Source of the DNA: Peribacillus loiseleuriae
GTDB taxonomy: Bacteria; Bacillota; Bacilli; Bacillales; DSM-1321
Direction of reading: 5' to 3'
DNA length: 64,000 nucleotides
NCBI RefSeq assembly: GCF_001183985.1
Contig: NZ_LFZW01000001.1
Coordinates: 4,307,621 to 4,371,620 of the forward strand
Below the pieces are notes generated by a model. It worked only from the letters and a program-made list of their open reading frames with translations, did no database searches and was not told the DNA's origin. This document shows, one piece after another, positions 17,012-55,503 of the stretch. The translations under genes and the position numbers were made by a program. Within the stretch, counting starts at the first letter, position 1. Each line of letters opens with the position of its first letter.

Positions 17012-17255
17012 AAAAAAAACCCTCATCCCTATAAAAAGGGACGAGAGGATTATGTATCTAATCGACCCGCGGTACCACCCAAATTGGCGACTTGTAACCA
17101 TCGCCCCGCTCCAAATCCGTAACGTGGATGAACGTCAGGCATTACTAATCCTTCATGCCTGAAACTCAAAAGGCGAGTTCGCGATCACTCCTGGTTGACT
17201 TGCACCATCCGTCAACTCTCTACACAGGTTCTAATCGGTACTACTCCTCATCACT
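17012..17255 (-). promoter_or_regulatory. T-box riboswitch leader of leuS with CUC specifier
   Basis: Minus-strand leader with the diagnostic T-box sequence GGGTGGTACCGCGGGTCG (17063-17080), which pairs with the free acceptor end of uncharged tRNA. The specifier triplet CTC (Leu) can be placed at 17175-17177 in the context GAACTCGCC. The intrinsic terminator arms lie at 17037-17048 and 17020-17030, followed by eight T residues at 17019-17012. Uncharged tRNA-Leu would stabilise the antiterminator and switch on leuS. The 5' boundary is approximate. Confidence 0.93.
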
Positions 17256-17376
17256 GTCTATATTAGAATATTTAGTTATATAGTCATTCTAGTGAATTTC
17301 TATAGGAAAAGCAAGCGCTCATTCCTATTATGATCATGTTTTTCTTTATATATGCATGTCATATGGAAAATGTTCC

Positions 17377-28310: not shown

Positions 28311-28925
28311 TCATGCATTTTTAGTTCCTTCAAAAATAACCTCTTGTAACGGCTTTCTACTACTAGGGTTTTCACGTTCTTGTAATTTCTCATCAAGCGC
28401 TTCTTTTTCGCCACGATAGCCTACTGAAATGACGGCTTGAATATCTAATTCTTCTGGAACATTTAACAATTGCCGAGCTTTTTCTTTATCAAACCCTGTC
28501 ATTGCATGTGTGCTCAATCCAAGCATTGTTGCTTGGATTGCTAAATTTCCCCAAGCTGCACCTGCATCGAATGCATGAGATCCATTTGGATCGCCGTTGT
28601 CTCTATTTTTCATTGATGCAATCAATATAAGTACCGGAGCCTTTTCTGCCCAGATGCGATTGAATGGTGATAAAAATTCATGAAAGGCTTTCAATTGTGA
28701 TTCCGTTTTCGCTACAAAAAAACGCCAAGGCTGATCGTTAAAGGCGGATGGTGCCCAACGTGCTGCCTCAAGAATACTTGTCAAATCCTCATCTGAAACT
28801 TTACGTTCAGAATATGATCTTGGTGACCAACGATTTAAGAATAAGGGACTAACAGAATGTTCTGCTTTACGGTGCTCTTCAACTTCAGTTGTGAGATTCT
28901 CAACAGGATTAACAGTTAAACTCAT
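28311..28925 (-). CDS. Nitroreductase-family flavoprotein
   Basis: A 204-residue protein of the FMN-dependent nitroreductase family. The FMN-binding N-terminal segment NRWSPRSYSERKVSDEDL, then EAARWAPSAFNDQPWRFFV, and the C-terminal GYRGEKEALDEKL motif are typical. Such enzymes reduce nitro compounds, quinones or flavins with NAD(P)H. It lies last in a long same-strand run after the dipeptide-type ABC genes (112 bases away). In this context it could supply reduced flavin to the two LLM monooxygenases encoded upstream, or process the imported substrate; neither is shown by the sequence. Confidence 0.9.
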   Translation of the reverse strand: MSLTVNPVENLTTEVEEHRKAEHSVSPLFLNRWSPRSYSERKVSDEDLTSILEAARWAPSAFNDQPWRFFVAKTESQLKAFHEFLSPFNRIWAEKAPVLILIASMKNRDNGDPNGSHAFDAGAAWGNLAIQATMLGLSTHAMTGFDKEKARQLLNVPEELDIQAVISVGYRGEKEALDEKLQERENPSSRKPLQEVIFEGTKNA

Positions 28926-29036
28926 TACATAACCTCATTTCCATAAATAATTTACTAACTATTCCATCATAATCTATTTTTAGTCACTTTTTAAATGGAA
29001 TAGCTCTGCTATTTTCCATTTGTCTCTGTATCTTGA

Positions 29037-31049
29037 TTACGCAGGATGATGACAGGCTGCCCAATGCCCACTATCTATTTCACGGAATAAGGGCTGTTCT
29101 TCCCGACAACGAGCCGTTGCTGCAGGACAACGCGTATGAAAACGGCAGCCTGACGGAGGGTTTGCAGGGGATGGAATTTCCCCATGTATAGAAATTATCT
29201 CTCTTTGATGCCTTGGATCAGCAATCGGGATTGAACCTATAAGCCCCCTCGTATAATGATGAGCAGGATGTTTAAATAACTCTTCACTCGGAGCAATTTC
29301 AACCAACTGACCTAAATACATAACCCCAATACGATCTGAAATATGACGGACAATATTTAAGCCGTGCGCAATAAATAAATAGGTTAAATCAAGGTCATTT
29401 TGTAACTCCTGCATCAAGTTTACAATTTGTGCCTGAACAGATACGTCTAGTGCAGAAACAGCTTCATCCGCTAAAATAAATTGAGGATTGAGCGCAATTG
29501 CCCTTGCAATCGCAACCCGCTGCCGCTGACCGCCTGAAAACTCATGTGGATAGCGCTCCGAGCTGTTTTTATTTAATCCAACAGCCTCTAGGAGCTCTTG
29601 CACTCTAATCCGTTTTTCCTTTTTAGTTAGCGATTGATGGACTTGCAGTGGTTCACCAATAATGTCGCCAACTTTCCAACGTGGATTGACAGAACCATAT
29701 GGATCCTGATAAATCATTTGCATATGCTTTCGCGTCTCTCGCAATTCTTTATTACTTAACTTCGAAAGATCTTGATCCTGAAATAAGACTTTCCCACCGG
29801 ACGCTTTCTCTAACTGTAAAAGAACACGTCCTAATGTCGATTTCCCACTTCCAGATTCACCTACAAGACCAAATGTTTCCCCTTTTTCAATTGTAAAAGA
29901 CACGTTGTCCACCGCTCTAACGAAGGATGAAGTTCCTGAAAATGTACGATTACCTAGTGGATAAAATTTACTAAGTTCTTGAATCGTAAACAACTTTTCA
30001 CGAGGCTGCTCTTTTTTCCGAGGACGCTGTAGGTCAGATGTAGTCTGCAAAGTAGGCTTCTTCCAGCTATCATTCTTTACTAATTCTTCTGAATACCAGC
30101 AAGCCGACTTCCGATTATTTACATCCAATAAGGGAGGTGCTTCATTTAAGCAGCGCTCTGTCGCATACGGGCAGCGAGGATGGAACCGGCATCCGGATGG
30201 CAAATCCGATAACCCTGGAATCGAGCCTTCAATTGAAAAAAGCTTTTTACTCCGATCACTGTCGATTGTTGTAACAGACTGAAGCAGTCCATGTGTATAT
30301 GGATGATGTGGCGACTCAAATAGTTGTAATGTCGTTGCCTGTTCAACAATGCCACCTGCATACATCACAATAATTCGGTCTGCCACCTCAGCTGCAATTC
30401 CCATATCATGGGTAATCAATAAGATCGACATGCCAAACTCTGTTTTTAATTCTTGAAGTAATTGCAAGATCTGGGATTGAATCGTAACATCTAGTGCGGT
30501 TGTTGGCTCATCCGCAATAAGTAAATCAGGTCCCAAAGCAAGTGCCATCGCAATCATTGCACGTTGTAGCATGCCTCCAGATAACTCATTCGGATATTGC
30601 TTTAACCGTAATTCTGCGTCCGATATGCCGACCCGCTGTAGTAAATAAATGGCACGTTTTCTGGCTTTTTCCGTGCTCGATTGTTTGTGCGCTAGGATCG
30701 TTTCAATAATTTGGTTGCCTATCGTAAACACGGGATCGAAAGCCGCCATCGGTTCTTGAAAAATCATCGCCATCTTTTTACCACGTATGGCACGTAACTC
30801 TCTTTGAGATAGTTGCGTCAAGTCAACATCATTCAGTCTAATATCCCCATCTGCTATTTTCCCATTTTCGTAATCAATCAATCGCATAATTGATTTGGAT
30901 GCGACCGTTTTTCCACTTCCAGATTCTCCAACAATGCAGACCGTTTCCCCAGCTTTAATTTGAAAAGAAACATCCCGTATAGCTGTTAAATAGCCGTCTT
31001 TTGTTGTAAAGTCGACTTTCAGCTGCTGTATGTCTAGCAATTGTGACAT
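29037..31049 (-). CDS. Fused double ATP-binding protein of a dipeptide-type ABC importer
   Basis: A 670-residue protein joining two ABC ATPases (OppD/DppD-like then OppF/DppF-like). The first has Walker A GESGSGKT, signature LSGGMLQR and Walker [10 protein letters not shown]; the second has [17 protein letters not shown] and FILADEAVS. Each half ends in the peptide-transporter Cys motif ([12 protein letters not shown] and [12 protein letters not shown]), which can bind an Fe-S cluster in some members. The start at 31049 is preferred because AAAGGAGGG lies six bases before it. It forms an importer with the two permeases and the lipoprotein upstream. A degenerate family C element fills the gap before it. 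Confidence 0.93.
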
Positions 31050-31063
31050 CTGCATCCCTCCTT

Positions 31064-31131
31064 TTATCCCAATGTAACGAACCTTCAGCGAGGGATGAAG
31101 AGCCCCCTTACTGATGCTAGATTCACTTCAT
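31064..31131 (-). repeat. Family C element, degenerate short copy on the minus strand
   Basis: On the minus strand the sequence runs GAAGTGAATCTAGCATCAGT, AAGGGGGCTCTTCATCCCTC, GCTGAAGG, then TTCGTTACATTGGGATAAAA. This follows the order of the family (AAGTGAAACTTCAATCAGT, hairpin, CGTTAATGCGGGATAAA) with many changes. It lies between dppC-like and dppDF-like genes and ends directly against the AAAGGAGGG ribosome binding site. Confidence 0.5.
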
Positions 31132-31135
31132 CAAT

Positions 31136-32017
31136 CTACTTCGTTTTCGGGTCATACATATCCCGAAGTTTGTCACCAATTATATTTACGGAAAGGACAA
31201 AAAGTGTAATAGCGAGACCAGGAAATGTCGAAATCCACCATCCTGTTGTTAAATAGCCTCTTCCTTGAGCGAGCAATGCTCCCCAGTCCGGAATTTCCTT
31301 AATCACACCTAATCCAAGAAAGCTTAAACCTGAACCAACCAATATGGAAGTACCTAGGCCAATCGTTGCCATGACAAGTAATGGGGACCAAGAATTCGGC
31401 AGGATATGCCAGATTAGAATGCGCCAATTGGGAGTACCGATGGAACGGGATGCCACCACAAATTGCCGTTTTTTTATACTCATCATTTGTCCCCGCATTA
31501 CCCGCGTATATCCCGGAATAGAAGAGACCGCAACCGCTAAGACAACGTTCATTAAACTCGGTCCAAGAGCAGCCGCAATGGCTAAGGCGAGCAGGATACC
31601 CGGAATCGTCATCAATATGTCAGTAAAGCGCATGAAGATCATATCCACCACACCTCCAACATAACCGGCTAACGCGCCCAGTCCTCCGCCAATCCCCCCT
31701 CCAATCAAAACGGACACAACGCCAATAATTAAAGAATCTCGGCTTCCATACACAACAAGACTAAGCACATCTCTGCCAAAATAATCTGTCCCTAGTAAGT
31801 GCAATGCACTAGGAGGACTTAAAATAAATTCTGTATGCATATGCGTAGGCGAATATGGTGCGATCCATTGCGGAAATAGCGCGCACGCCACGATAAACAG
31901 CACAATCATTCCTGCTACATAAACGAATAAATTCGAAGCCGACAAGTTTATTTTAAGCTTGATTAAATTCCATTTCGGGGCGCTCCATATAGTTTTGGAA
32001 TTAATTGCCTCTTTCAT
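31136..32017 (-). CDS. Dipeptide-type ABC transporter permease (DppC-like)
   Basis: A 293-residue inner-membrane permease with about six membrane segments. After an N-terminal cytoplasmic part it has TM1 (LFVYVAGMIVLFIVACALF), the DppC hallmark HLLGTDYFGRDVLS, and the EAA-like coupling loop ASRSIGTPNWRILIWHILPN. The ATG at 32017 has AAAGGAG at the right distance. An upstream start would add eleven residues spanning that site. The gene pairs with the DppB-like permease; the two are separated by a 50-base family C element. Confidence 0.93.
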   Translation of the reverse strand: MKEAINSKTIWSAPKWNLIKLKINLSASNLFVYVAGMIVLFIVACALFPQWIAPYSPTHMHTEFILSPPSALHLLGTDYFGRDVLSLVVYGSRDSLIIGVVSVLIGGGIGGGLGALAGYVGGVVDMIFMRFTDILMTIPGILLALAIAAALGPSLMNVVLAVAVSSIPGYTRVMRGQMMSIKKRQFVVASRSIGTPNWRILIWHILPNSWSPLLVMATIGLGTSILVGSGLSFLGLGVIKEIPDWGALLAQGRGYLTTGWWISTFPGLAITLFVLSVNIIGDKLRDMYDPKTK

Positions 32018-32033
32018 CCAATGCCACTCCTTT

Positions 32034-32088
32034 ATAAAGTAAAACTTCAATCAGTGGGGGTTTACTACCCGTTAATGCGGGATAAACG
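32034..32088 (+). repeat. Family C minimal element (about 50 bp) inside the operon
   Basis: ATAAAGTAAAACTTCAATCA and GTGGGGGTTT are joined directly to ACTACCCGTTAATGCGGGAT followed by AAA. Only the extreme left and right ends of the family remain. The left end abuts the ribosome binding site of the DppC-like gene (which reads on the other strand). Confidence 0.75.
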
Positions 32089-32103
32089 CGCACTTTCAAG
32101 GAT

Positions 32104-33036
32104 TTAATGAGATCTTCGTACCCTTGGATCGATGACTGAGTACGATAAATCAACTAAAAGATTAATAATGACGTAGACAATCGCACTGAAAAATATCACC
32201 CCTTGAATAACAGGTAAATCTTTTGCCATAATCGCATCCGCAATAATTCGCCCAATTCCCTGTCTCGAAAAGACCGTTTCAATTACGACTGTGCCAGCCA
32301 TCATCTCGCCAATATTCATGCCAATAATCGTAATGGCTGGAATGAGCGCATTTCGGAGTGCATGACGATACATGACCACCCGTTCCGACAGCCCTTTGGC
32401 ACGAAGAGTAACGATAAACTGCTCATTCACCACTTCTAGCATACTGGTTCGTACCATTCGGATTATTAAACCCGCACCAACAAAACCAAGAGCAAGAGAA
32501 GGCAAGATAAGGGTTTTCCAGTCATCAGATCCCATCGCGGGAAGCCAGTTCAAATTCACAGAAAAAATCAGTATAAGTAAAATTCCAGACCAAAATGTTG
32601 GCATCGAAATACCAAACAACCCAACTAAACGAGCCAAAATATCAATCCATTTATTACGATAAATGGCGGATAGAACACCTAATGTTACCCCAATCACTAT
32701 CGAAAAAATGGTACTTGTCAGTGTCAAAATAAGTGTAGCCGAAAAATGCATTAAAATTTTAGGTAAGACTGGATCACTATTGATTAAGGATTGACCAAAG
32801 TCTCCATGTAAAATGGCAGTGAAGTATTCAACAAATTGCACATAAAACGGTTGATCTAGCCCTAATTCCCTACGCAAATTTTCGATCATTTCAGGTGTTG
32901 CGACAGATGGATCTATCATTGAAAGTACAGGATCCCCCGGAAGCAAATAGATGATACAAAATACAAGGATTAAGGAGCCTAAAACCGATACGAATGAATT
33001 TGCAATTCTCACCAGCGCTTTGCTGATTAATGTCAT
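32104..33036 (-). CDS. Dipeptide-type ABC transporter permease (DppB-like)
   Basis: A 310-residue permease with an N-terminal membrane segment (VLGSLILVFCIIYLLPGDPV), followed by the DppB family region ELGLDQPFYVQFVEYF and five further membrane segments. The coupling loop TLRAKGLSERVVMYRHALRN, matching the EAA motif, is present. The start lies 24 bases from the substrate-binding protein stop with an AAAGGAGCTGG ribosome binding site. With the DppC-like partner it forms the channel of the importer. Confidence 0.95.
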   Translation of the reverse strand: MTLISKALVRIANSFVSVLGSLILVFCIIYLLPGDPVLSMIDPSVATPEMIENLRRELGLDQPFYVQFVEYFTAILHGDFGQSLINSDPVLPKILMHFSATLILTLTSTIFSIVIGVTLGVLSAIYRNKWIDILARLVGLFGISMPTFWSGILLILIFSVNLNWLPAMGSDDWKTLILPSLALGFVGAGLIIRMVRTSMLEVVNEQFIVTLRAKGLSERVVMYRHALRNALIPAITIIGMNIGEMMAGTVVIETVFSRQGIGRIIADAIMAKDLPVIQGVIFFSAIVYVIINLLVDLSYSVIDPRVRRSH

Positions 33037-33060
33037 ACATACCAGCTCCTTTCCATTCTC

Positions 33061-34698
33061 TTATTGTCCAATACGTACATCATTGAATAGCGGATAGCCT
33101 AATGAATCGAATGTTATGCCATTTACCTTTTTAGATGCTGCTACCGTATATGGAAATACGTAAATTGGGATAATTACTGCTTTTTCAATGATGATTTGTT
33201 GCGCTTTTTTATAAATTTCTTCACGTTTTGCCGGCTCATGTTCGATTGTACCTTGCTCTAGCAATTTATCTAATTCTGGATCAGAGCCTCCACCTAACAT
33301 TCTTCGCGCGGCTTCCTTTTCCGGATCTGATGTATGGTATATATCAAGCAGCGAATTTGGATCACTATTTACTTGACTGTTTCCATACAAATCGTAATCC
33401 GCATTCTGATAGATAACCGTAGCTGTATCTTTTGTAATATTAATGTCCACTGCGATTCCGATCTCTTTTAACTGTTGCTGAATGATAACGGCTATATCAT
33501 TCCTTTTTTCACGGTTAGGAGAACCATCGACATAATTCAAAGTAAGTTTTTTACCATCTTTTTCGCGAATGCCATCCGAGCCTTTTTTATAGCCGAGTTC
33601 ATCTAGTCGTTTATTTGCTTCATCTAGGTCCGGCTTTACACTATTTTCAAGTGATTCATCGTATCCTAACATGCCCGGTGAAAGAGGCGACCACGCTCGT
33701 TCGTAAGTCCCCATATACAATGTTTTAACAATCGCATCAACATCGATCGCAAGCTGGACTGCTTTTCGAACGTTTACATCATTCCATGGTTTATTTCTTT
33801 GATTAAAAAAGAGTGTATACGGTAAGCCGAGTGTATTTACTTGAAGCAATTGAGTTTTGGGATCATCTTTTAAAGACACAATATTTTGTGGTGGGACTGT
33901 TTCCGCTGCAAGGACCTGGCCGCTTTGTACACTGCCGATTCGCGTTGCTTCTTCTGGAATGATTTTAAATGTAATTTTATCTAGATATGGAGCTCCATCA
34001 TTTTCTACAATGGAAGGTGCCCATTTGTAATCATTATTTTTTTCGACTTGAATATCTGCATTTTCTATCCAGCTGACAAACTTATAAGGTCCCGTACCTA
34101 CTGGATGTTTGCCGAACTGATCTCCATCCTTCTTTGCTGCTGTTGGTGATACTATTCCAAGCAATGCCTGGCTCAAATTGCTCAGAAAAGCAGCAGAAGG
34201 TGTTTCAAGATTAATTTTGATCGTGTATTCATCAATGACTTCTGACGATTTATACGGACGAATAAGTGCCAACGCGTTTGCTGCTTTCGTTTCCGGATCT
34301 ATAATTCGGTCATAGTTATACTTCACTGCTTCCGCATTAAATGGTGTCCCATCGTGGAAGGTTACATCTTCACGTAATTTGAAGGTATAACTTTTTCCAT
34401 CTTCTGAAACCGTCCATTCTGTCGCAAGCCAAGGCTGAATCGTATTATCAGCTGTTTGCACAACGAGACTATCAAAAATCGTTCTAAATGCGCGGACAGA
34501 CACCGCGAGTCCACTTCGATGTGGATCCAATGTATCCGGTGATGTAGCCAACGCATATGTTAGCTCACCACCTGTTGATTCCTTCCCGCTTGTATCTTCA
34601 CTGTTACTCGTGCTTGCTCCATTGGAACATCCCGCTAAAAGAAGCAAAAAAGCTGTGGCAACCGTTAATGTTTTTGTCCAATTAGGCCATTTCTTCAC
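33061..34698 (-). CDS. Lipoprotein substrate-binding protein of a dipeptide-type ABC importer
   Basis: A 545-residue SBP_bac_5 (OppA/DppA-like) protein. The lipobox LLLAGCSNG places the lipidated cysteine at about residue 24. The family signature KSYTFKLREDVTFHDGTPFN and the later segment DVNVRKAVQLAIDVDAIV are present. Such proteins bind peptides, glutathione, nickel chelates or other ligands; the ligand cannot be told from sequence. Its position directly after a YtnJ-type monooxygenase (15 bases) and before both permeases suggests that the ligand is a sulfur-containing conjugate handled by the neighbouring enzymes. Confidence 0.93.
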   Translation of the reverse strand: MKKWPNWTKTLTVATAFLLLLAGCSNGASTSNSEDTSGKESTGGELTYALATSPDTLDPHRSGLAVSVRAFRTIFDSLVVQTADNTIQPWLATEWTVSEDGKSYTFKLREDVTFHDGTPFNAEAVKYNYDRIIDPETKAANALALIRPYKSSEVIDEYTIKINLETPSAAFLSNLSQALLGIVSPTAAKKDGDQFGKHPVGTGPYKFVSWIENADIQVEKNNDYKWAPSIVENDGAPYLDKITFKIIPEEATRIGSVQSGQVLAAETVPPQNIVSLKDDPKTQLLQVNTLGLPYTLFFNQRNKPWNDVNVRKAVQLAIDVDAIVKTLYMGTYERAWSPLSPGMLGYDESLENSVKPDLDEANKRLDELGYKKGSDGIREKDGKKLTLNYVDGSPNREKRNDIAVIIQQQLKEIGIAVDINITKDTATVIYQNADYDLYGNSQVNSDPNSLLDIYHTSDPEKEAARRMLGGGSDPELDKLLEQGTIEHEPAKREEIYKKAQQIIIEKAVIIPIYVFPYTVAASKKVNGITFDSLGYPLFNDVRIGQ

Positions 34699-34713
34699 TT
34701 AAATCCACCCCCA

Positions 34714-36048
34714 TCATTTTTTTACTGATTCTTGTACATACCTATTGATCGGGAATGGCAAACCGAGATTACCTCGTAATGTATCGGCCTCATATTCCGT
34801 CCGGAACAGTCCTCGTTTTTGCAGAATAGGCACAACATGATCAGTAAAATCTGTCAGATTGCTTGGAATGCTAGAAGAGATAATAAATCCATCCGCCCCG
34901 CAGGCCTCAAACCACTCTTGAATAAGATCTGCTACTTTGGACGGAGTTCCAATAAACGGAGTACGCGGTGTCGCTTCCCTTAGTGCAACTTGACGAAGTG
35001 TCAGATTCTGCTCTTTCGCCTCTTGTTTAATTCGATCTGTACCACTTTTAAAGCTATTTTGTCCTAATGCACCCAATTCCGGGAACGGTTCATCTAATGG
35101 ATATTGAGAGAAATCGTGATGTTCAAAATATCTTCCCAAATAGGCAAGTGCTTTATCGATTGTCATCAAGTTCGCAATTTCTTGGTATTTTTGTTCCGCT
35201 TCTTCCTCCGTTTTACCGACGATCGGTCCGATCCCTGGCAAAATTAGAATCTCATCTGGATTCCGTCCGAAAGCAGTAGCCCTGCTTTTAACATCTTGAT
35301 AAAATTCTTTAGCCTCTTCTAATGAAGGATGGTGTGTAAATATAGCATCCGCTTCTTTTGCTGCAAGATTTTTACCATCTTCTGAAGAACCTGCTTGAAA
35401 AATGATTGGGCGCCCTTGTTGTGAACGAGCAATATTAAGCGGGCCTTCCACAGAGAAGAATTCTCCTTTATGATCCAGTTGATGGAGCTTTTCAGGATCA
35501 AAAAATACACCGGTTTCTTTGTCTCTGACAAATGCATCATCTTCCCATGAATCCCATAAGCCTTTCGTGACTTGAATATATTCAGCAGCGATTTTGTAAC
35601 GTTTTGCGTGATATGGGTGTTCTTCAATCGATTTACTGAAGTTTAATGCCGTTTTCTCAAGAGGAGATGTTACGACATTCCATCCCGCACGTCCCTTACT
35701 AATATGATCAAGTGAAGAAAACTGACGTGCAACATTGAACGGTTCGCTATATGATGTAGACAGGGTTCCGGCAAGACCAATTCGTGAAGTAACAGCAGCA
35801 AGAGCCGATAGAATAGAAATGGGTTCAAAACGATTTAAGAAATGGGGAATCGATTGCTCATTAATATGCAATCCATCTGCTATAAAAACAAAATCAAATT
35901 TCGCTTCTTCTGACTTTTGTGCTTGATACTTATAAAATTCAAAATTTACACTCGCATCTCCTTGAACTTCTGGATGTCTCCATCCTGAAATATTGCCACC
36001 AACGCCATGTATGATCGTTCCCAATTTCAATTTTCTTTGTTCGGACAT
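34714..36048 (-). CDS. LLM-class flavin monooxygenase (YtnJ/NtaA/SnaA/DszA type)
   Basis: A 444-residue member of the NtaA/SnaA/DszA branch of luciferase-like monooxygenases, which use reduced FMN and O2 to cleave C-S or C-N bonds. Diagnostic segments are [18 protein letters not shown], the [18 protein letters not shown] motif, [21 protein letters not shown] and [18 protein letters not shown]. The start at 36048 has GAGGGG eight bases upstream; an earlier ATG overlaps that site. The gene follows a YtnI-like glutaredoxin by 66 bases, the order found for ytnI-ytnJ in the B. subtilis ytmI sulfur operon. A paralogue is encoded at 48811-50145. Confidence 0.93.
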
Positions 36049-36114
36049 TTTCATTTCCCCTCTCACTAATTATGATTATTCATATGAAATTAGTATGTTT
36101 TATTTATAAAAAAA

Positions 36115-36384
36115 TTAGTTAGTTTGTAAATATGGAGCAAGCACCTTTTCAAGATGACTAATTCCAATTTCTGTAACCCCTTCATACATACCGTTCTGAC
36201 CAATTTCAACTACAGGTACATGACGAATACCATATTTAGCTTCTAAAATATCGCGTCGTTCATCGTGATTTGTCACATCAATGGTTTGATAATCCACCTG
36301 TTTTTCTTCTAAAAATTGTTTGACCTCTGCACAATAGTGACATCCTTCTTTTGACCATACAACTACATTTAATGATTTTGACAT
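36115..36384 (-). CDS. ytnI: Glutaredoxin-family protein (YtnI-like)
   Basis: An 89-residue glutaredoxin fold with the redox-active CxxC as EGCHYCAEV at about residues 13-21, the cis-proline in RHVPVVEIG and the closing GLSH-like EIGISHLEK. It resembles YtnI of the B. subtilis ytmI operon, where it sits between YtmO and YtnJ exactly as here. A thiol-disulfide role in reducing sulfur intermediates is inferred. A strong GAGGAGG ribosome binding site precedes the start. Confidence 0.88.
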   Translation of the reverse strand: MSKSLNVVVWSKEGCHYCAEVKQFLEEKQVDYQTIDVTNHDERRDILEAKYGIRHVPVVEIGQNGMYEGVTEIGISHLEKVLAPYLQTN

Positions 36385-36453
36385 AATAAATTCCTCCTCT
36401 AACTTTAAATTCTTGATTTCTTAAATGAGCTTTCGGGCTATCAAACAGCTTTG

Positions 36454-37473
36454 TTACAAAATATACTCTTCTTCATTCTTTTTCTCTTCAGAATATGTCG
36501 GACTTAATAATTGAAACGTCCGGAATCGTTCTTCTTTTGTTTGAACCGGTGAATGCAAAATAAACTCATCCACTTGATATGTGTTATGAAGATGTGCTAA
36601 CTCTTCTTTAATAAATACCGGTGTTCCGGCAATGATGTTAGCCTCTTGTTCAGACACTTCATATGGCTCACCTGCTTGACTACCAAACGTCTCCGCTTGT
36701 TTTGCCGACTGAACGGTTACCGTGCGGCCGCTTTTGAGATGAACTTTAAACAGTTTGTGATCCAAAGCAAGCTGTTCGGCTTCTTGCTTGGAAGGGGCAG
36801 CTATAACTGCAACCGATACTAGAAGACGCCCTCGTTCGTTTCTAGCATGAAACGCATTGGCAGCTTCTTCAAGAACGGAAATGTCGCTGTTAATGAAGCG
36901 AGCAAACACAAAATTCCAACCATATTTAGCGGCTAATTTAGCGCTCTCTACACTTGCACCAAGCAAATAATTTTCCGGTTTTTCCGGCGGAACCGGTAAA
37001 GCTTGAATGCCAGAAAGTGAATGGTTTTCGTCGACTGAATTTTCAAGCAATTGGTTCAAAAAAGAGAGCCGTTCTTCAAAATCTTCACCATCATTCACGG
37101 TTCCAAACTGAAGTGCTTTTGACGATAACGGCAGGCCGCCTGGTCCTTTTCCGATTCCGAGATCTACCCGTCCTGGAGCTAGTGTAGAAAGGACATGAAA
37201 GTTTTCAGCTACTTTATACGAGCTGTAATGCTGAAGCATAACTCCTCCTGACCCAATACGGATCGCATTTGTTCGAGCAAGAAGATAGGAGATTAATACT
37301 TCCGGTGATGAACCTGCCAACTGTTCCGTGTGATGATGCTCCGATACCCAAAAACGCGAGTAGCCCCATTCTTCCGCTTTTTGAGCGAGATGTACAGTTT
37401 GCTGGAGTGCTTCAAACGGTGATGCTCCTTTTTGGATTGGACTTTGATCTAGCAAACCAAGCTGATACCCCAT
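36454..37473 (-). CDS. ytmO: LLM-class flavin-dependent oxidoreductase (YtmO-like)
   Basis: A 339-residue protein of the alkanal monooxygenase-like (MsnO8) group of the luciferase family, starting MGYQLGLLDQSPIQKG. Typical segments are EEWGYSRFWVSEHHHTEQLA, GSGGVMLQHYSSYKVAENFH and LAPGRVDLGIGKGPGG. The frame is open 44 codons upstream, but GGAGGAAAG precedes the ATG at 37473 and homologues start there. It is first of the YtmO-YtnI-YtnJ trio found in the ytmI sulfur operon of B. subtilis. Confidence 0.9.
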   Translation of the reverse strand: MGYQLGLLDQSPIQKGASPFEALQQTVHLAQKAEEWGYSRFWVSEHHHTEQLAGSSPEVLISYLLARTNAIRIGSGGVMLQHYSSYKVAENFHVLSTLAPGRVDLGIGKGPGGLPLSSKALQFGTVNDGEDFEERLSFLNQLLENSVDENHSLSGIQALPVPPEKPENYLLGASVESAKLAAKYGWNFVFARFINSDISVLEEAANAFHARNERGRLLVSVAVIAAPSKQEAEQLALDHKLFKVHLKSGRTVTVQSAKQAETFGSQAGEPYEVSEQEANIIAGTPVFIKEELAHLHNTYQVDEFILHSPVQTKEERFRTFQLLSPTYSEEKKNEEEYIL

Positions 37474-37617
37474 ATGCACTTTCCTCCTATTTCCAATCCA
37501 TACTTTTCCGGTACGAATAATCAATTTCAATTCTGAACTATATCCTACCACCCCAAACAGCCAAAAGGCAATACTTCCAGTGATAGAAAGATTTATTCGA
37601 TTCATTCAAAAAATCTA

Positions 37618-38523
37618 TCAATCTGGTTGAAGTACTCGTTTAGATTCGTTCTCTTTGAACTTTTTGATAGATAAAAGAATGTCTTCCCACAAAAAAGGAA
37701 TGTCCGCCCCATAGTATGTTCCGTGAATATGTTGTTTTAGCATCAGCAAGTGATCAACATTAATTTCTACAAGTTGACCGGACTCCAGCTCCCTTTTAAT
37801 ACATAAGTAAGGTAAAAAACCAATCCCACTGCCAGATTGAATCAGTGATTTTGCTACTTCAAGATGACCGACCTGAAATTCGATGCGCGGTTCAATATTC
37901 GCTACTTCAAACATTTTATGAACAAGGTTCCAGTTAAACGCACCACATTCAAAAAATACCATTGGTTCACCTGCTAATTGCTGTACGGACAATTTCGAAG
38001 CCGATTGAAGCGGATGGCCCGGTTTTACAACGAGTCTTACGGAATTATCAAGAAGGGGTTCTTGCTGTAGCGCATTGTGTGCGATTTCTTTCATAAACGC
38101 CACATCAATTTGTTTCCGGAGCAGCTGATCCATCAAGGCATCATTAGACGCTGAAATGAATTTAAAGCGAATATCGGGATTAGCCTTTTTCCAGAGTGGC
38201 AGTGCAAATGGAATAAAATATTGGGACGTAATAAGATTAGCGCCAATAACGACCTCATCCTGATCCGTTTCTTTTTTCAATTTCTTCTTCCCTTGTTGCA
38301 ATGTATGGATAATCTGCTCGGCGAACGGAACGAATTCTTTCCCTTTTTCCGTCAACACAATCCCTCGCCCTTGTCGTTCAAATAATTCGATGTCTAATTC
38401 TCGCTCCAATGTTTTAATCCGTGCTGTAACCGTTGGCTGTGACAAAAACAACGCCTCTGCTGCTTTATGAATACTACTGAAATGGACAACATACATGAAA
38501 GATTCAATGTGGTCAATGTTCAT
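37618..38523 (-). CDS. LysR-family regulator (YtlI/CysL-like)
   Basis: A 301-residue LysR regulator. The N-terminal winged helix (residues 1-65) has the FSSIHKAAEALFLSQPTVTA recognition region; the effector-binding periplasmic-binding-like domain covers about 90-295. It is encoded upstream and in the same direction as the YtmO-like gene, with a 144-base gap in which its operator may lie. In B. subtilis the LysR protein YtlI activates the ytmI operon, so an equivalent role is inferred. The gene may be cotranscribed with the operon it controls. Confidence 0.9.
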   Translation of the reverse strand: MNIDHIESFMYVVHFSSIHKAAEALFLSQPTVTARIKTLERELDIELFERQGRGIVLTEKGKEFVPFAEQIIHTLQQGKKKLKKETDQDEVVIGANLITSQYFIPFALPLWKKANPDIRFKFISASNDALMDQLLRKQIDVAFMKEIAHNALQQEPLLDNSVRLVVKPGHPLQSASKLSVQQLAGEPMVFFECGAFNWNLVHKMFEVANIEPRIEFQVGHLEVAKSLIQSGSGIGFLPYLCIKRELESGQLVEINVDHLLMLKQHIHGTYYGADIPFLWEDILLSIKKFKENESKRVLQPD

Positions 38524-39032: not shown

Positions 39033-40238
39033 TTATGCTTGCTCTTGTTGCTTTGCTTCAAGAAAAGCAATTTTTACTTTGTTCAGTAATTCTTGATCAG
39101 TAAGTAACTTATACCCAGCAAATGCCAAGGCTTTAGCACCGGTAAGGATGGCATGATTCCCCTGATCTGACTTCGCACATTCACGGAATTCATTGGTGTG
39201 AGCAATTAGATCATCCGGGCCAATTTTAATAAACGGATGAGCAGTCGGCACAACATGGCTGACATTTCCAGCGTCTGTTGAGCCATACCCAGTTGTTTTT
39301 CGAGGAATTACCGTCTCTCCCAATTGGGTTAACTCTTCTGCCAATAAGTCATCTAAAACCGGATTGATGATAAAATTAAAAATTTCATTTTGAAATCGTT
39401 CAATTTTGACGGTGCTACCAGTAGAAAGGGCTGCACCTTTAGCGATATTTTGAATTTTTTCAGATACGTTCTTGCACTTTTTCCATGTTTCAGCTCGAAT
39501 AAAGAAGCGGGCTGATGCATATTCAGGGATAATATTGGGGGCATCGCCACCGTTTGTAATAATGCCATGAATTTTTACATCGGAGGGCAATTGCTGCCTG
39601 AGAGCCCCAATGCCATTAAACAATTGAATGACGCTATCGAGCGCATTGATTCCTTGATCCGGTGAAGCCGCTGCATGGGCTGCTTTTCCGTAAAAATGAA
39701 ATTCAAGCGGATCGACAGCAAGAAATGGGTTCGTCACACCTGTTTGTCCTGACGGATGAATAATGATGGCTGCATCGACGCCATCAAACAATCCTTGTTT
39801 GACATAGCTTCCTTTTGCACTTCCATTTGGCCCGCCTTCTTCTGCCGGGGTACCAAATACAATCACTTCCCCACCTGTCTCCTCGAGAACCTTTGCAAGT
39901 GAAATTCCGGCTGCGACACTTGTTGTACCAATAATATTATGACCGCAAGCATGGCCGAGCCCTGGCAATGCATCATACTCGGCTAGAAAAGCGATTGTTG
40001 GGCCTTCTTTTGATGACCTTTTTCTCGCGATAAAACCCGTCTCATGGCCAGCAATATCACGTTCCACATCAAAGCCCGCTTCAACTAGTAAAGCCGTTAG
40101 CGTATTAGAAGCAAAATATTCTTGGTTGCCGATTTCAGGATTCGCATGAATTTTTTGACTTGTTTCAACATACTTATTTGCTCGTAATTCAAGATCTTCT
40201 TCAATGATTTGCAAGTGAACTTCCTTAACAATAGTCAC
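39033..40238 (-). CDS. M20-family amidohydrolase (N-acyl amino acid deacylase type)
   Basis: A 401-residue metallopeptidase-like amidohydrolase of the M20D group (HipO/YtnL, YxeP, AbgB). Metal ligands are visible in ACGHNIIGT (Cys/His), PAEEGG (Glu-Glu) and IIHPSG, and the dimerisation-domain motif GKAAHAAASPDQGINALD is intact. The start is GTG with AAGGGGG upstream. It follows metQ by 83 bases under the same SAM riboswitch. Related enzymes remove acyl groups from cysteine or other amino acids (SndA/SndB roles in S-(2-succino)cysteine breakdown); here an N-acyl methionine or cysteine derivative is the likely substrate. Confidence 0.9.
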   Translation of the reverse strand: MTIVKEVHLQIIEEDLELRANKYVETSQKIHANPEIGNQEYFASNTLTALLVEAGFDVERDIAGHETGFIARKRSSKEGPTIAFLAEYDALPGLGHACGHNIIGTTSVAAGISLAKVLEETGGEVIVFGTPAEEGGPNGSAKGSYVKQGLFDGVDAAIIIHPSGQTGVTNPFLAVDPLEFHFYGKAAHAAASPDQGINALDSVIQLFNGIGALRQQLPSDVKIHGIITNGGDAPNIIPEYASARFFIRAETWKKCKNVSEKIQNIAKGAALSTGSTVKIERFQNEIFNFIINPVLDDLLAEELTQLGETVIPRKTTGYGSTDAGNVSHVVPTAHPFIKIGPDDLIAHTNEFRECAKSDQGNHAILTGAKALAFAGYKLLTDQELLNKVKIAFLEAKQQEQA

Positions 40239-40321
40239 AGTTTCTTGCCCCCTTCTAATTAGAAAGAAGCCAGATAAAGTTTCGTTATCTCTATTTGGCT
40301 TCGACTTTATTTTGTATCAGT

Positions 40322-41185
40322 TTATTTAGCAGCAGGTTTCGTCCAAGCATCTTTATAATTAACCAGCTCGTCTACTGAAACGTATGCCGGAATCTGGCTT
40401 CCTTTAAACGTATCATCTATGAATTGTTCTACCTTTTTGGATTGATAAAGCTCCACTAATTTCTGTAATTCCGGACGGTCTGCATTCCCTTTTTTCACAG
40501 CAATAATATTAATATATGGTTTAGCTGTAGCATTTTCATGGAATAAAGAATCCTCTAATTTTAAGCCTGCCTCCACGGCAAAGTTATTATTAATAACAGA
40601 CGCTTCCACATCATCTAAGAATCGCGGTGTATTGCCAGCTGCCACTGCTTCAAACTTCAAATTCTTCGGATTGGTTGCAATTTTATTTAATGCACCGTTT
40701 CCATCAAAATCCTCAACTAACGTAATCAAACCCGCTTCTTGTAAAAGTAATAAGGCACGTCCAAAGTTCGTTCCTTCATTTGGTACAGCAATTGTTGCAC
40801 CTTCTGGCAGTTCCTCAAGCTTCTTATATTTTTTTGAATACAACCCCATTGGAGCAATAACCGTCGCACCGATTGCTTCTAAATCCAACTTTTGCTTTTT
40901 AATAAATTCGTCAAAATAAGAAACCGTTTGAAAGGAATTTGCATCAATCTCCCCTTCAGCTAATGCTAGATTCGGCTGGATATAATCATTAAATTTAACG
41001 AGCTCAATCTTCAACCCTTCTTCTTTAGCGATACCAACGATATAATCCCATGTTCTTGTATCCCCACTACTAACGCCGACTTTCACTGTTTTTTCACCAT
41101 CTGCATTGCCTTTTACTTCATTTTTTCCACATGCTGACAAGACAGCAAGTGCCAGTATTAAGATTGCAATTAATAATTTCTTCAT
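40322..41185 (-). CDS. metQ: Methionine ABC transporter substrate-binding lipoprotein
   Basis: A 287-residue NlpA/MetQ-family lipoprotein. The lipobox LAVLSACGKN places the lipid cysteine at residue 19. Family segments are VKVGVSSGDTRTWDYI, LALAEGEIDANSFQTVSYF and NEGTNFGRALLLLQEAGLI. The ATG at 41185 follows GGGGG; the upstream open frame overlaps metI and is not coding. It is third in metN-metI-metQ. A SAM-I riboswitch upstream of metN supports methionine as ligand. Confidence 0.95.
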   Translation of the reverse strand: MKKLLIAILILALAVLSACGKNEVKGNADGEKTVKVGVSSGDTRTWDYIVGIAKEEGLKIELVKFNDYIQPNLALAEGEIDANSFQTVSYFDEFIKKQKLDLEAIGATVIAPMGLYSKKYKKLEELPEGATIAVPNEGTNFGRALLLLQEAGLITLVEDFDGNGALNKIATNPKNLKFEAVAAGNTPRFLDDVEASVINNNFAVEAGLKLEDSLFHENATAKPYINIIAVKKGNADRPELQKLVELYQSKKVEQFIDDTFKGSQIPAYVSVDELVNYKDAWTKPAAK

Positions 41186-41201
41186 TTTGTTTTTCCCCCA
41201 A

Positions 41202-41873
41202 TTATCTTCTTCTGATTTTTTTTGACACGATATTTCCAGTTGATTGTAGTAATTGAACGATAACGACAAGGGCTGCAACCGTGACAATCATGGTCATCGT
41301 ATCGAAGCGTTGATAGCCATAACTTAAAGCAAGATCACCCACTCCCCCTGCTCCAACTGCTCCGGCCATTGCTGAAGCGCCGACAAGACCGATTGTTGCT
41401 GTTGTAAACGTAAGAACCAACGAGCTAAGTCCTTCTGGAATTAAAAAGCGAAAAATAATCTGCCATGTCGTCGCTCCCATTGCTTCTGCCGCTTCAATAA
41501 TTCCTTTATCTACTTCCAAGAGTGAATTTTCCACAAGGCGAGCGATATAAGGCGCTGCATAAAAAATTAAGGGAACGATTGCTGCATTTGTGCCAATCGC
41601 TGTACCGACTACGAATCTAGTAAACGGAATAAGTGCAACTAGTAAAATAATAAATGGAACAGACCGTAAAATATTAATAACGGGGTTCAAAACATTGAAT
41701 ACCCACTTATTCTCCAAGATATGACCGTTCCTAGTTATGACAAGTAAGATTCCCAGCGGAAGTCCAATCACAACTGAAAATAATAGGGATAAGGCAACCA
41801 TATAAAGCGTATCACCAAAACCAGTTAACAGCTGCTCAGCCGTAATTTCCATGCCCCATAATGTGTTATTCAT
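41202..41873 (-). CDS. metI: Methionine ABC transporter permease
   Basis: A 223-residue permease with five membrane segments. The coupling loop EAAEAMGATTWQIIFRFLIPEGL and the preceding INILRSVPFIILLVALIP are typical for MetI. The start overlaps the end of metN by eight bases, and metQ follows 16 bases after its stop, so the three are translated as a unit. Confidence 0.95.
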   Translation of the reverse strand: MNNTLWGMEITAEQLLTGFGDTLYMVALSLLFSVVIGLPLGILLVITRNGHILENKWVFNVLNPVINILRSVPFIILLVALIPFTRFVVGTAIGTNAAIVPLIFYAAPYIARLVENSLLEVDKGIIEAAEAMGATTWQIIFRFLIPEGLSSLVLTFTTATIGLVGASAMAGAVGAGGVGDLALSYGYQRFDTMTMIVTVAALVVIVQLLQSTGNIVSKKIRRR

Positions 41874-42885
41874 GTATTCTCACCTCCTGTACAAGAATAT
41901 TTTCAGCTTGAATATAATCGTATGCTTTCTTAATCTCGCTTTCTTCTCCTGTCACTTCAATAATCAAATTACCAAAAGGTGTTTCCTGGATTTCCGAAAT
42001 ATTGGCTGACAACACATTTAAATCGACATCAAATTGTTTGGCAACTGTAGATAATAATGGCTTGCCTGAATTTGCTCCAATAAAATTAATTTTCCAGATA
42101 ATCGGATTTCCTGCCGCCTGGCTTTTAAAACTTTTGGGAATTTCATCATGGATTACTGTTCGGACAAAATTTTGGGCAATCTCCGTCTGCGGTTTAGCAA
42201 ATACGTCAAACACAGGACCTTGTTCAACAATCCTGCCACCTTCCATGACCGCCACCTTATTACAAATTTCGCGAATGACCGACATTTCGTGGGTAATTAG
42301 CAAGATGGTGATGTTATATTCCTGGTTCACTTTCTTTAATAGCTGTAAAACAGCACTTGTCGTTTGTGGATCGAGCGCTGATGTTGCTTCATCGCATAAT
42401 AGAATCGAAGGATTGGTTGCTAAAGCACGTGCAATGCCGATTCGCTGCTTTTGACCACCAGACAGTTGCTCTGGATAATTTTTCGCCTTTCCTAAAAGAC
42501 CCACAAATTCCAATAGTTCATTAACTCGTGTCTGAATTTCTTTAACAGGTGTACCTGATAAGATGAGCGGCATCGCTACATTATCAAAAACGGTCTTTGA
42601 GTTCAGTAAATTAAAATGTTGGAAAATCATGCCGATTTTCTTCTTCTCCGCTCGTAAATCTTTCGGCTTTAAAGAGGTCAACGCCTTACCATTTACCAAA
42701 ATTTCCCCTTCTGATGGACGTTCTAGTAAATTGACTAACCGAATCAATGTACTTTTCCCAGCACCGCTATAACCAACAACACCGAAAATATCGCCTTTTT
42801 CCACGATTAGATCGATCCCTTTCAACGCTTCGACCGTTTGTTTCTTCGACTCATACCTCTTTTTTACATTTTGAAATTCAATCAT
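41866..42885 (-). CDS. metN: Methionine ABC transporter ATP-binding protein
   Basis: A 339-residue ATPase with Walker A GYSGAGKST (about 38-46), Q-loop FQHFNLL, signature LSGGQKQR and Walker B LLCDEATS. The C-terminal NIL domain (about 262-339, ending in IQAENILVQEVRI) is the regulatory methionine-binding domain of MetN transporters. A GGGGGAGAG ribosome binding site precedes the ATG. It is the first gene of metNIQ-amidohydrolase and is preceded by a SAM-I riboswitch and its terminator. Confidence 0.97.
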   Translation of the reverse strand: MIEFQNVKKRYESKKQTVEALKGIDLIVEKGDIFGVVGYSGAGKSTLIRLVNLLERPSEGEILVNGKALTSLKPKDLRAEKKKIGMIFQHFNLLNSKTVFDNVAMPLILSGTPVKEIQTRVNELLEFVGLLGKAKNYPEQLSGGQKQRIGIARALATNPSILLCDEATSALDPQTTSAVLQLLKKVNQEYNITILLITHEMSVIREICNKVAVMEGGRIVEQGPVFDVFAKPQTEIAQNFVRTVIHDEIPKSFKSQAAGNPIIWKINFIGANSGKPLLSTVAKQFDVDLNVLSANISEIQETPFGNLIIEVTGEESEIKKAYDYIQAENILVQEVRIHE

Positions 42886-42924
42886 CTACTCTCCCCCATG
42901 TTGTTCCTTTTCAAAGCTGTAATA

Positions 42925-43123
42925 CGAAAAAGCCTCTTCCATCATTAGACAGAAGAGGCTTACTTAGACAAATTAAAAGAATATACTTCTATTAGTTATC
43001 TAGCAAAGGCTTCTTCTTATCTTTCAAACTTTCGTTCGTTGGATTTAGCACAGTATTTTTACAAAAGTAAAAACCTGTTGCCGAGGTTTCATAGGGCCAA
43101 GTCCCTCCACATCTCTTGATAAG
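42925..43123 (-). promoter_or_regulatory. SAM-I (S-box) riboswitch with terminator, upstream of metN
   Basis: On the minus strand the aptamer begins CTTATCAAGAGATGTGGAGG, continues GGACTTGGCCC and AACCTCGGCAACAGG, and closes with GTGCTAAATCCAACG and GAAAGATAAG; these are the conserved S-box elements, with P1 formed by CTTATC / GATAAG (43118-43123 and 43016-43021). The intrinsic terminator has arms AGCCTCTTC (42930-42938) and GAAGAGGCT (42952-42960) plus a T-run. High SAM should stop transcription of metNIQ and the amidohydrolase gene. Confidence 0.95.
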
Positions 43124-43219
43124 AAATATCCATATATAATTTTTATTTTCTCTACTATATAACTTAATATTTAAAATGTCAATTAAATTCTAAAAAATCT
43201 GTTTGTTATGACCGAGAGG

Positions 43220-48810: not shown

Positions 48811-50145
48811 CTATACTCTGATCTGCCTTTTATCAAATTGGGCTTCAGGTTCAGGCAAACCCAAATTTTCTCGTAATGTTTTACCTTCATACTCTGTTCT
48901 AAACAAACCTCTATGCTGTAATACGGGGACGACTAACTCTACAAAATCATTGAGGCTTGCCGGAAAACTTGGGAGCATAAGATTAAAACCATCAGCTCCT
49001 TTATTCACAACCCACTCCTCTAACTGATCGGCGATTCCTTCCGGGTCGCCAAATATGATCCGATGGCCTCTAGAACCTGCAACATGCAAATAGAGTTCCT
49101 TAATCGTAAGGTTCTCTCTTCTTGCTAGATTGATGAGCAGTTCTCGCCGGCTCCGATTTCCATTCGTTTCTGGGATATTTTCTGGCAATGGCTGATCTAA
49201 CGGATAACCAGAAAGATCAAATCCACCCAAGTATTCAGATAGAAGATCTAGCCCAACTTCGGGGACGATAAGTTCCTGAAGCTTCTGATATTTTTCTCTT
49301 GCTTCCTGTTCTGTGTGCCCGACAAAAGGGGATAGACCCGGCATTATTTTTACATCGTCTGGTGATCTACCGTATTCGATTACTTTTTCTTTTACCGTTT
49401 TATAAAAAGCTTGTGCCTCTTCTAATGTTTGTTGAGCTGTAAATATAACATCAGCTGTCTGTGCCGCTAAGTTCATTCCTTCTTCGGATGACCCTGCCTG
49501 GATGATAATCGGTCGTCCTTGAGGAGATCGAGAAGCATTTAATGGTCCCTTTACAGAAAAATAACTACCTTGATGATGGAGAGTGTGTAATTTATCCGGA
49601 TTAAAGTAGACACCAAATGCCTTGTCTCTGACAAGCGCGTCTTCTTCCCAACTATCCCAGAGTCCTTTAACGACCTCGACAAATTCTTTCGCCCGATCAT
49701 AACGAAGACCATGGCTTAAATGACTTTGCTGATTAAAGTTGCTTGCTTCTGTTTGATAATAAGAGGTTACAACATTCCATGCAGAACGTCCGCCGTTTAT
49801 ATGATCTAGAGAAGCAAATTTCCGTGCTATATGAAACGGTTCATTATAGGTCGTTGTGGCAGTTGCAGCTAGACCAATATGGGTTGTAACCACAGATAGC
49901 GCTGCTAACAAAGTAAGGGGTTCGAATCTAACAAGTTCAGCTGGATGGGATAGACCGTTAAAGGATAGCCCATCACTTAAGAAAAGCATATCCAACTTTC
50001 CTTTTTCTGCAATCTTAGCAATTTCTTGATAATGTCGGAAATCCTCACTGGCATCCGCTTGAACATGGGGATGCCTCCATGATGCAATATGATGGCCAGA
50101 TCCCATAAGGAATACGCCTAATTTTATTTTCTGCCCCATCTCCAA
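48811..50145 (-). CDS. LLM-class flavin monooxygenase (second YtnJ/NtaA-type paralogue)
   Basis: A 444-residue enzyme of the NtaA/SnaA/DszA group, equal in length to the paralogue at 34714-36048. Shared segments include SWRHPHVQADASEDF, SLDHINGGRSAWNVVTSY, GLWDSWEEDALVRDKAFGVY and GRPIIIQAGSSEEGMNLAAQ. It is the last gene of the ssu operon (31 bases after ssuC), so it probably oxidatively cleaves a sulfonate, sulfone or other organosulfur compound brought in by SsuABC. The sequence does not reveal the exact substrate. Confidence 0.92.
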   Translation of the reverse strand: MEMGQKIKLGVFLMGSGHHIASWRHPHVQADASEDFRHYQEIAKIAEKGKLDMLFLSDGLSFNGLSHPAELVRFEPLTLLAALSVVTTHIGLAATATTTYNEPFHIARKFASLDHINGGRSAWNVVTSYYQTEASNFNQQSHLSHGLRYDRAKEFVEVVKGLWDSWEEDALVRDKAFGVYFNPDKLHTLHHQGSYFSVKGPLNASRSPQGRPIIIQAGSSEEGMNLAAQTADVIFTAQQTLEEAQAFYKTVKEKVIEYGRSPDDVKIMPGLSPFVGHTEQEAREKYQKLQELIVPEVGLDLLSEYLGGFDLSGYPLDQPLPENIPETNGNRSRRELLINLARRENLTIKELYLHVAGSRGHRIIFGDPEGIADQLEEWVVNKGADGFNLMLPSFPASLNDFVELVVPVLQHRGLFRTEYEGKTLRENLGLPEPEAQFDKRQIRV

Positions 50146-50176
50146 CTCTCCTTTACTTGTGATGCCTTCATCTTAT

Positions 50177-50959: not shown

Positions 50960-50988
50960 TTTCTACTCCTTCCCACGTAAGGCTTACT

Positions 50989-51963: not shown

Positions 51964-52030
51964 TTAAATTCTCCAATCATACGTTAGGATTCTATCAATT
52001 TTTTACTTTTCTCTTTTGAACAGTTTTATA

Positions 52031-53149: not shown

Positions 53150-53174
53150 AAAAATTCCCTCCTTTATTCATTCT

Positions 53175-53966: not shown

Positions 53967-53996
53967 CCCGTAACGATTTCATTTTTTAACTCTTGA

Positions 53997-54380: not shown

Positions 54381-54520
54381 AATCGTTCTCCTCTCCGACT
54401 TTCATCAATAATTCTTAGTTAACTTATATGATTAATATATATTCAACTATAACGCAGTTAATAATTTTTGTATAATTGAAAAAAATGAAGAGAAAATTCA
54501 AAAATATTGAATAAGCGAGT

Positions 54521-55426: not shown

Positions 55427-55503
55427 TGCGGCTTTCCCTCCTTACGGCTTTAAAAAAATAGCAGATTGCCTTGTATCAACAAAACAATCCACTATCTTTT
55501 TTC

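Follow-up and report, generated by a model that had tools for sequence, protein, structure and literature searches.

A putative cysteine-salvage operon of Peribacillus loiseleuriae in which CmoO-CmoI-CmoJ-type genes adjoin a family-5 ABC importer

A 64,000-nucleotide stretch of the Peribacillus loiseleuriae genome (hereafter the window, whose positions are used unless another locus is named) carries a putative operon (28311-38523) in which genes for enzymes like CmoO, CmoI and CmoJ (YtmO, YtnI and YtnJ) adjoin those of an ATP-binding cassette (ABC) importer with a family-5 substrate-binding protein (SBP). CmoJ is paired with this importer in Paenibacillus as well, and also in several genera of the Bacillaceae and Planococcaceae. 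The explanation favoured here, at chances just short of even, is that of a LysR-controlled cysteine-salvage operon with a family-5 importer of its own, which supplies CmoO, CmoI and CmoJ with an S-alkylated, most likely N-acylated, cysteine. The more specific idea, that a CmoO-CmoJ operon here includes a bacterial importer dedicated to mercapturates (N-acetyl-S-alkylcysteines) and so skips the acetylation step, is offered more tentatively, with the odds somewhat against it. No report of a mercapturate importer within a CmoO-CmoJ operon was found in the open full-text literature, which leaves out most subscription papers.

Organization of the operon

The interval contains nine open reading frames (ORFs), all on the minus strand, in the order LysR, CmoO, CmoI, CmoJ, SBP_bac_5, DppB, DppC, DppD-DppF and nitroreductase from 38523 to 28311. 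Genes were delimited by simple ORF scans and labelled by homology, and Pfam and NCBIfam backed the families. The original prediction of nine genes of these families in one direction was thus confirmed. The CmoO start was corrected to near 37473, which gives a protein of 339 aa, matching its relatives. With this start, the intergenic gaps from LysR onward are 144, 69, 48, 15, 24, 53, 80 and 111 nt, the last one preceding the nitroreductase gene, and the genes are presumed to be co-transcribed.

CmoO (36454-37473) is predicted to be the flavin monooxygenase of the sulfoxidation step. It belongs to the MsnO8 family (TIGR03558, 332 bits), occupies the same position as in Tcy-type operons from sister species and, in comparisons within the genus, shows 66-71% identity to the YtmO proteins encoded in Tcy-type operons. 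The glutaredoxin-like CmoI (36115-36384, PF00462) has a CHYC motif, and a CxxC-type motif was present in 71 of 75 YtnI-labelled ORFs. CmoJ (34714-36066, TIGR03860), a putative C-S bond-cleaving flavin monooxygenase, matches the solved B. subtilis YtnJ (1tvl) with 596 bits over residues 12-444. On these similarities the three proteins are assigned to the CmoO/CmoI/CmoJ (YtmO/YtnI/YtnJ) S-alkylcysteine salvage set and, as had been predicted, their genes adjoin those of a peptide-type importer.

The LysR-family regulator (37618-38523; HTH_1, LysR_substrate), YtlI-like by its position, shows 67-72% identity to the LysR proteins that sister species encode in their Tcy-type operons. The LysR-CmoO gap (37474-37617), a likely promoter/operator region, can be aligned with its counterparts in Tcy-type operons from this genus, at lengths of 130-144 nt, which suggests that regulation is similar while the importer is different. 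It holds a promoter-like TTGGCT-16-TATAGT (37564-37537), the number of such sites being not above chance.

The B. subtilis ytmI (cmo) operon encodes YtmI, TcyJKLMN, YtmO/CmoO, YtnI, YtnJ/CmoJ, RibR and YtnL. The operon of the window shares with it CmoO, the glutaredoxin and CmoJ, next to the LysR gene and alignable promoter region common to the Tcy-type operons of sister species, but its importer is of the SBP_bac_5/DppBC-DppDF type, and it lacks a YtnL-type deacetylase. Neither a GNAT acetyltransferase nor a TcyJKLMN-type importer was found in it by ORF and Pfam/NCBIfam analysis.

The importer and its binding protein

The window contains a complete family-5 importer set, consisting of an SBP_bac_5 lipoprotein (33061-34698, PF00496), two binding-protein-dependent permeases, one DppB-type (32104-33036, PF00528 and PF19300) and one DppC-type (31136-32050, PF00528), and a fused DppD-DppF ATPase (29037-31055) with two ABC_tran and two oligo_HPY stretches. 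The lipobox Cys24 of the SBP is invariant in five aligned sequences, and its AlphaFold model has a mean predicted local distance difference test (pLDDT) score of 90.4. The best solved fold neighbours were 5u4o from B. anthracis, whose listing names no ligand, then GsiB (1uqw), AgaA, H. pylori DppA, NikA and CntA. Since these include GsiB, AgaA, NikA and CntA, the term "dipeptide-type" used in the prediction is too narrow a name. The NCBIfam models of GsiB, NikA, CntA and DppA all match the SBP below their curated cut-offs, as does the best model, TIGR04028 (288 bits, cut-off 468.5). The names of TIGR04028 (SBP_KPN_01854) and TIGR04027 (LLM_KPN_01858), which contain locus tags, may point to a neighbouring luciferase-like gene; the luciferase-like family differs from that of the window. 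With E. coli GsiABCD the importer shares a fused two-domain ATPase and a family-5 SBP, but the SBP reaches only 188 bits where the GsiB cut-off is 594, and the importer is linked to CmoJ.

Residues were compared in an alignment of 41 of the 74 listed close SBP ORFs, or fewer once repeats are removed. None of these 41 has an Asp at the position of DppA D408/OppA D419, through which those proteins bind the amino group of peptides; the residue is V in 35, F in three and M, A or I in one each. Near-invariant are R69, N395 and K398 (41 each) and R396, E397 and R399 (40 each), and R69 with the N395-R399 stretch could form a carboxylate site, as judged from conservation.

In a number of Paenibacillus operons (L059-L065, L067, L068, L093, L169, L170, L172-L177 and L179), the SBP and both permeases are present with no DppDF gene in the run. 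These importers must borrow an ATPase, perhaps that of the opine-metallophore importer which follows in some of them. The metallophore neighbours may explain the ATPase-less operons or hint at an opine-like ligand, the former being more likely.

Conservation of the CmoJ-importer pairing

The best 80 SBP matches in the named genomes comprised 57 loci with an SBP of at least 44% identity and 23 more distant ones; loci extended about 10 kb from the match, and genes further off were missed. In 50 of the 57 close loci a CmoJ gene was encoded on the same strand no more than 8 kb away, in 43 immediately upstream, whereas none of the 23 distant loci had a CmoJ (at least 53% identity), an imperfect control with many loci from other phyla and some contigs shorter than 5 kb. 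The 57 loci are not independent, being mostly from Paenibacillus and including a block of near-identical operons. Same-strand neighbours within 10 kb were CmoO at 36 of them, M20 at 30, flavin mononucleotide (FMN) reductase at 24, YtnI at 21 and nitroreductase at one. FMN reductase was a label by similarity, and the one ORF that was checked (L060) is of the SsuE type. Seven loci had no CmoJ nearby (L090, L100, L101, L104, L106, L107 and L110), six of these having another luciferase-like gene; any such gene was near the importer at 56 of the 57.

An order-wide sample of 299 genomes (SBP E 1e-90 or better, the four best first-look candidates per genome being scored) gave four SBP matches beside that of the window. 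Three, of 49-57% identity, had CmoJ in their stretch, in three gene orders; the fourth, of 36% identity, had none. A quick tree built from 115 CmoJ proteins requires 15 changes of the importer-only label, or at least 13 when starred branches are counted, which indicates that the pairing does not go back to one inherited event. This count is inflated by label noise, L070 being called "none" despite its importer and L091 and L098 importer-only despite nearby Tcy genes. In the proposed check on gene order, the CmoJ-importer pairing proved to be kept across genera, as predicted; the exact nine-gene order is not conserved.

In Bacillus methanolicus PB1 (L052/L108), a transposase gene splits the CmoO ORF and the DppDF reading frame is in three pieces. 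A DinB-superfamily (thiol-transferase-like) family occurs at 16 of the 57 importer loci (e.g. L069, L077, L078, L083, L089, L091 and L096); the representative from L096 matches the DinB_2 superfamily, and ORFs in L104 and L107 gave matches to both DinB_2 and a mycothiol-transferase model. Such neighbours would fit a thiol S-conjugate theme and are no proof of it.

Nearest relatives and the nitroreductase gene

YtnI (E 1e-10 or better) was found in 18 of 43 genomes of the same family, that of the window included, with 19 matches. Stretches were taken around the 18 matches beside that of the window, and 16 of them (L028-L043, leaving out L044 and L045) entered the operon count. L039 had no CmoJ of at least 53% identity. 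Of the other 15 loci, 14 were Tcy-type with acetyltransferase and M20, usually in the order LysR-CmoO-CmoJ-CmoI-acetyltransferase-Tcy-acetyltransferase-M20, and one, in genome G029 (L028), had the version of the window.

The G029 locus is 95% identical in DNA to that of the window over 14.3 kb, except that DppDF and the nitroreductase gene are separated by an extra 1.8 kb, in which there is another luciferase-like gene; the junction in the window is at 28995/28996. A luciferase-like gene follows DppDF in L058, L104 and L107 as well, from which we infer that a 1.8-kb deletion in the genome of the window removed this gene and brought the nitroreductase gene closer. The latter (28311-28925, PF00881) was near only one of the 57 importer loci, that of the nearest relative, and homologues of 94% in G017 and 74% in G035 each lie on another contig than the YtnI of that genome. 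The nitroreductase is therefore probably not part of the module, and its predicted role as a supplier of reduced flavin was abandoned.

A second CmoO-CmoJ operon and the Tcy importer

The genome of the window (G000) has a second operon, CmoO-CmoJ-YtmI-TcyJLMN, on contig C1 at about 1366278-1372278 (L148, 8278-14278), in which no glutaredoxin was seen. Its YtmI-type acetyltransferase gene is at 10653-11192 of L148. The absence of YtmI noted in the original prediction therefore holds for the operon of the window and not for the genome. An intermediate result, that the genome had no acetyltransferase, was wrong, since a search with one subfamily had missed the YtmI type of the second operon; two matches were found in G000. 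The further proposal that the family-5 importer had replaced the Tcy transporter was rejected, because the genome has both in separate operons and some Paenibacillus have both in a single run; runs with both importers were counted at 11 of the 50 named loci with a CmoJ run, for example L069, L075, L079, L094 and L097.

A third importer class, of the MetNPQ type, stands beside CmoJ, CmoO and YtnI in L168, L178, L180, L198, L204 and L205. The CmoO/CmoJ core thus occurs with Tcy, Dpp-type and MetNPQ-type importers, and these may set its substrate range.

Acetyltransferase and deacetylase genes

If the imported substrate were already acylated, the cell would skip its own acetylation, and the distribution of acetyltransferase and M20 genes bears on this point. 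An operon run was defined by genes on the same strand with gaps of at most 300 nt, in 80 CmoJ-centred stretches picked from 152 rows and not at random. Acetyltransferases were called with an iterated hidden Markov model built here, a regular-expression search having given none. An acetyltransferase was present in 0/12 importer-only runs versus 26/32 Tcy-only runs, and M20 in 11/12 versus 11/32, the other 36 runs having neither importer, both, or a Met-type one. In the named set, 2/38 importer-only runs had an acetyltransferase and 14/38 an M20, and 6/11 runs with both importers had an acetyltransferase. Of 8 independent pairs on the CmoJ tree, 4-6 showed the acetyltransferase going with Tcy and none showed the opposite. 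The P. amylolyticus-type operon, CmoJ-SBP-DppB-DppC-FMN reductase-LysR-CmoO-M20, would by its predicted functions take a substrate from import through oxidation and cleavage to deacetylation, with no acetylation step. The M20 encoded there resembles YxeP (L060, 426 bits). In B. subtilis, ScmP (YxeP), YhaA and YtnL deacetylate N-acetylcysteine (PMC12757645).

The pre-acylated substrate of the original prediction is accordingly favoured, with moderate support, and not shown: the acetyltransferase is rare and the deacetylase often kept in importer-only operons, and the SBP has no amine-binding Asp. Several observations weigh against it. The Asp is also absent from GsiB, NikA and 8/8 distant SBPs, and its absence therefore does not single out N-acyl ligands; the fold is near glutathione-binding GsiB and opine or metal binders. 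Acetyltransferase homologues occur elsewhere in 27 of 28 chosen importer-bearing genomes, so that absence in cis counts for little. The importer-only runs L089 and L108 include an acetyltransferase, and L051 has genes for an acetyltransferase, an M20 and YtnI next to an importer-only run, on the opposite strand. A single genus accounts for ten of the 12 importer-only runs. With a 9-kb range in place of runs (84 loci), an acetyltransferase was found at 2/15 importer-only and 32/44 Tcy loci. The tree-corrected association of acetyltransferase and Tcy reached only a median p of 0.06 (range 0.03-0.125). Fisher tests blind to phylogeny gave p 1.2e-4 for the 9-kb range and 9e-12 when pooled; neither was relied on, and the pooled one counts some genomes twice, as named and G-handle loci (e.g. 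L053/L105, L059/L176, L063/L174 and L067/L179). Moreover, no YxeP-type deacylase (YtnL/ScmP-like M20) is present in the operon of the window, the nearest M20 being HmrA-like, and opine-metallophore genes directly follow the operon in several Paenibacillus. Elsewhere in the genome of the window, YxeP-like M20 genes gave 11 matches, the best of 48%.

Proposed pathway and alternative explanations

In the proposed pathway, the lipoprotein would capture an S-alkylated cysteine derivative, most likely N-acylated (a mercapturate, e.g. N-acetyl-S-alkylcysteine), which DppB/DppC and the fused DppD-DppF ATPase would import. CmoO would then make the sulfoxide, CmoJ with reduced flavin would split it at the C-S bond into an aldehyde and an N-acylcysteine sulfenate, CmoI would reduce the sulfenate to the thiol, and an M20 deacylase encoded elsewhere would free cysteine. 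The second operon would handle free S-alkylcysteine, acetylated first. The chemistry is modelled on B. subtilis, where CmoO sulfoxidises the N-acetylated S-alkylcysteine and C-S cleavage by CmoJ then yields a sulfenic acid that undergoes reduction and deacetylation (PMC10863075); the portions of that article drawn on do not name CmoI/YtnI, and its role here is our assignment. The scm (yxe) operon for S-(2-succino)cysteine is similar in that an acetylated cysteine adduct is cut by a luciferase-like enzyme, with an N-acetylcysteine deacetylase and an ABC importer, and differs in having the YxeMNO importer, the enzyme ScmK and the acetyltransferase ScmL in cis (PMC9706529, PMC12757645). Firmicutes are reported to export mercapturates: according to a review, cleavage of bacillithiol conjugates yields CysSR and mercapturic acids, which are exported (PMC4360819). 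If the proposed pathway is true, the detoxification waste of one organism would be linked to the sulfur nutrition of another. The presence of two operons in one genome makes the acylated-substrate idea directly testable.

Unlikely, but a serious contender, is the import of peptide or glutathione S-conjugates (gamma-glutamyl or cysteinylglycine adducts), which would be cut inside the cell to S-alkylcysteine, acetylated in trans by YtmI of the second operon and passed to CmoO/CmoJ. The peptide type of the importer, the second-best solved fold of GsiB, the acetyltransferase homologues in trans, YtmI among them, and the presence, just upstream of the operon, of an HmrA-like M20 (a relative of Xaa-Arg dipeptidase) would all be in keeping with it. 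However, that M20 gene belongs to an S-box unit and, among the loci examined, adjoins the importer genes nowhere but in the window and in its closest relative. The 54 importer-only runs held 113 unlabelled ORFs in 58 groups, and Pfam searches with representatives of 23 of these groups revealed no peptidase other than M20 and no gamma-glutamyltransferase, five of them matching nothing at 1e-8. The hydrolase that does recur is the M20 of the YxeP type. One group (L059 20006-21292, five loci) is staphylopine dehydrogenase, which places an opine-metallophore cluster after the operon at these loci.

Another organosulfur compound could also be imported, its C-S bond being cut by the accompanying luciferase-like enzymes and the substrate of CmoJ having shifted. 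The seven importer loci without CmoJ, six of them with another luciferase-like gene, and the presence of such a gene at nearly all importer loci point that way, but CmoJ is the dominant partner and that of the window is close to B. subtilis YtnJ, which makes this explanation improbable. A shade less probable is the import of free S-alkylcysteines or their sulfoxides (e.g. plant S-alkylcysteine sulfoxides) in parallel to Tcy, with acetylation in trans: Dpp-type and Tcy importers do share one operon at the 11 loci mentioned above, but the importer would then duplicate Tcy, and family-5 SBPs usually take larger ligands. That an ordinary dipeptide, nickel or opine-metallophore importer lies beside sulfur genes by chance is very improbable. 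The sub-cut-off NikA, CntA and DppA matches and the opine-dehydrogenase genes after the operon in some Paenibacillus would agree with such an importer, but the CmoJ pairing is kept across genera and absent from all distant SBP loci, and metallophore genes are missing from most loci and, in L061, L062 and L111, have their own SBP gene (36-41%) after them.

Other features of the window

Upstream of the operon lie four co-directional genes (39033-42885, minus strand), MetN-MetP-MetQ (40322-42885) and an M20 hydrolase gene (39033-40238) whose product is HmrA/PM20D2-like (best solved match HmrA 3ram, 421 bits; YxeP, 52 bits). Ahead of them come an S-adenosylmethionine (SAM) riboswitch at 43014-43125 and, at 42961-42930, a stem of 14 pairs that resembles a terminator. 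Having their own SAM riboswitch, these genes probably form a methionine-regulated unit (39033-43125) separate from the operon, with an unexpected dipeptidase-type gene. The M20 hydrolase was not favoured as the deacylase of the operon because it belongs to this unit.

A second organosulfur island (48811-56805, minus strand) encodes a MetY-like sulfhydrylase, LysR, SsuB, an SsuD-like protein, SsuA, SsuC and an NtaA/DmoA-type luciferase-like enzyme. A T-box leader (17034-17263, minus strand) lies upstream of an 804-aa ORF (14535-16949). An Rfam 5_ureB_sRNA match (6268-6560, plus strand) is antisense to a 574-aa ORF (5000-6724), perhaps a urease gene, and may merely reflect conserved coding sequence.

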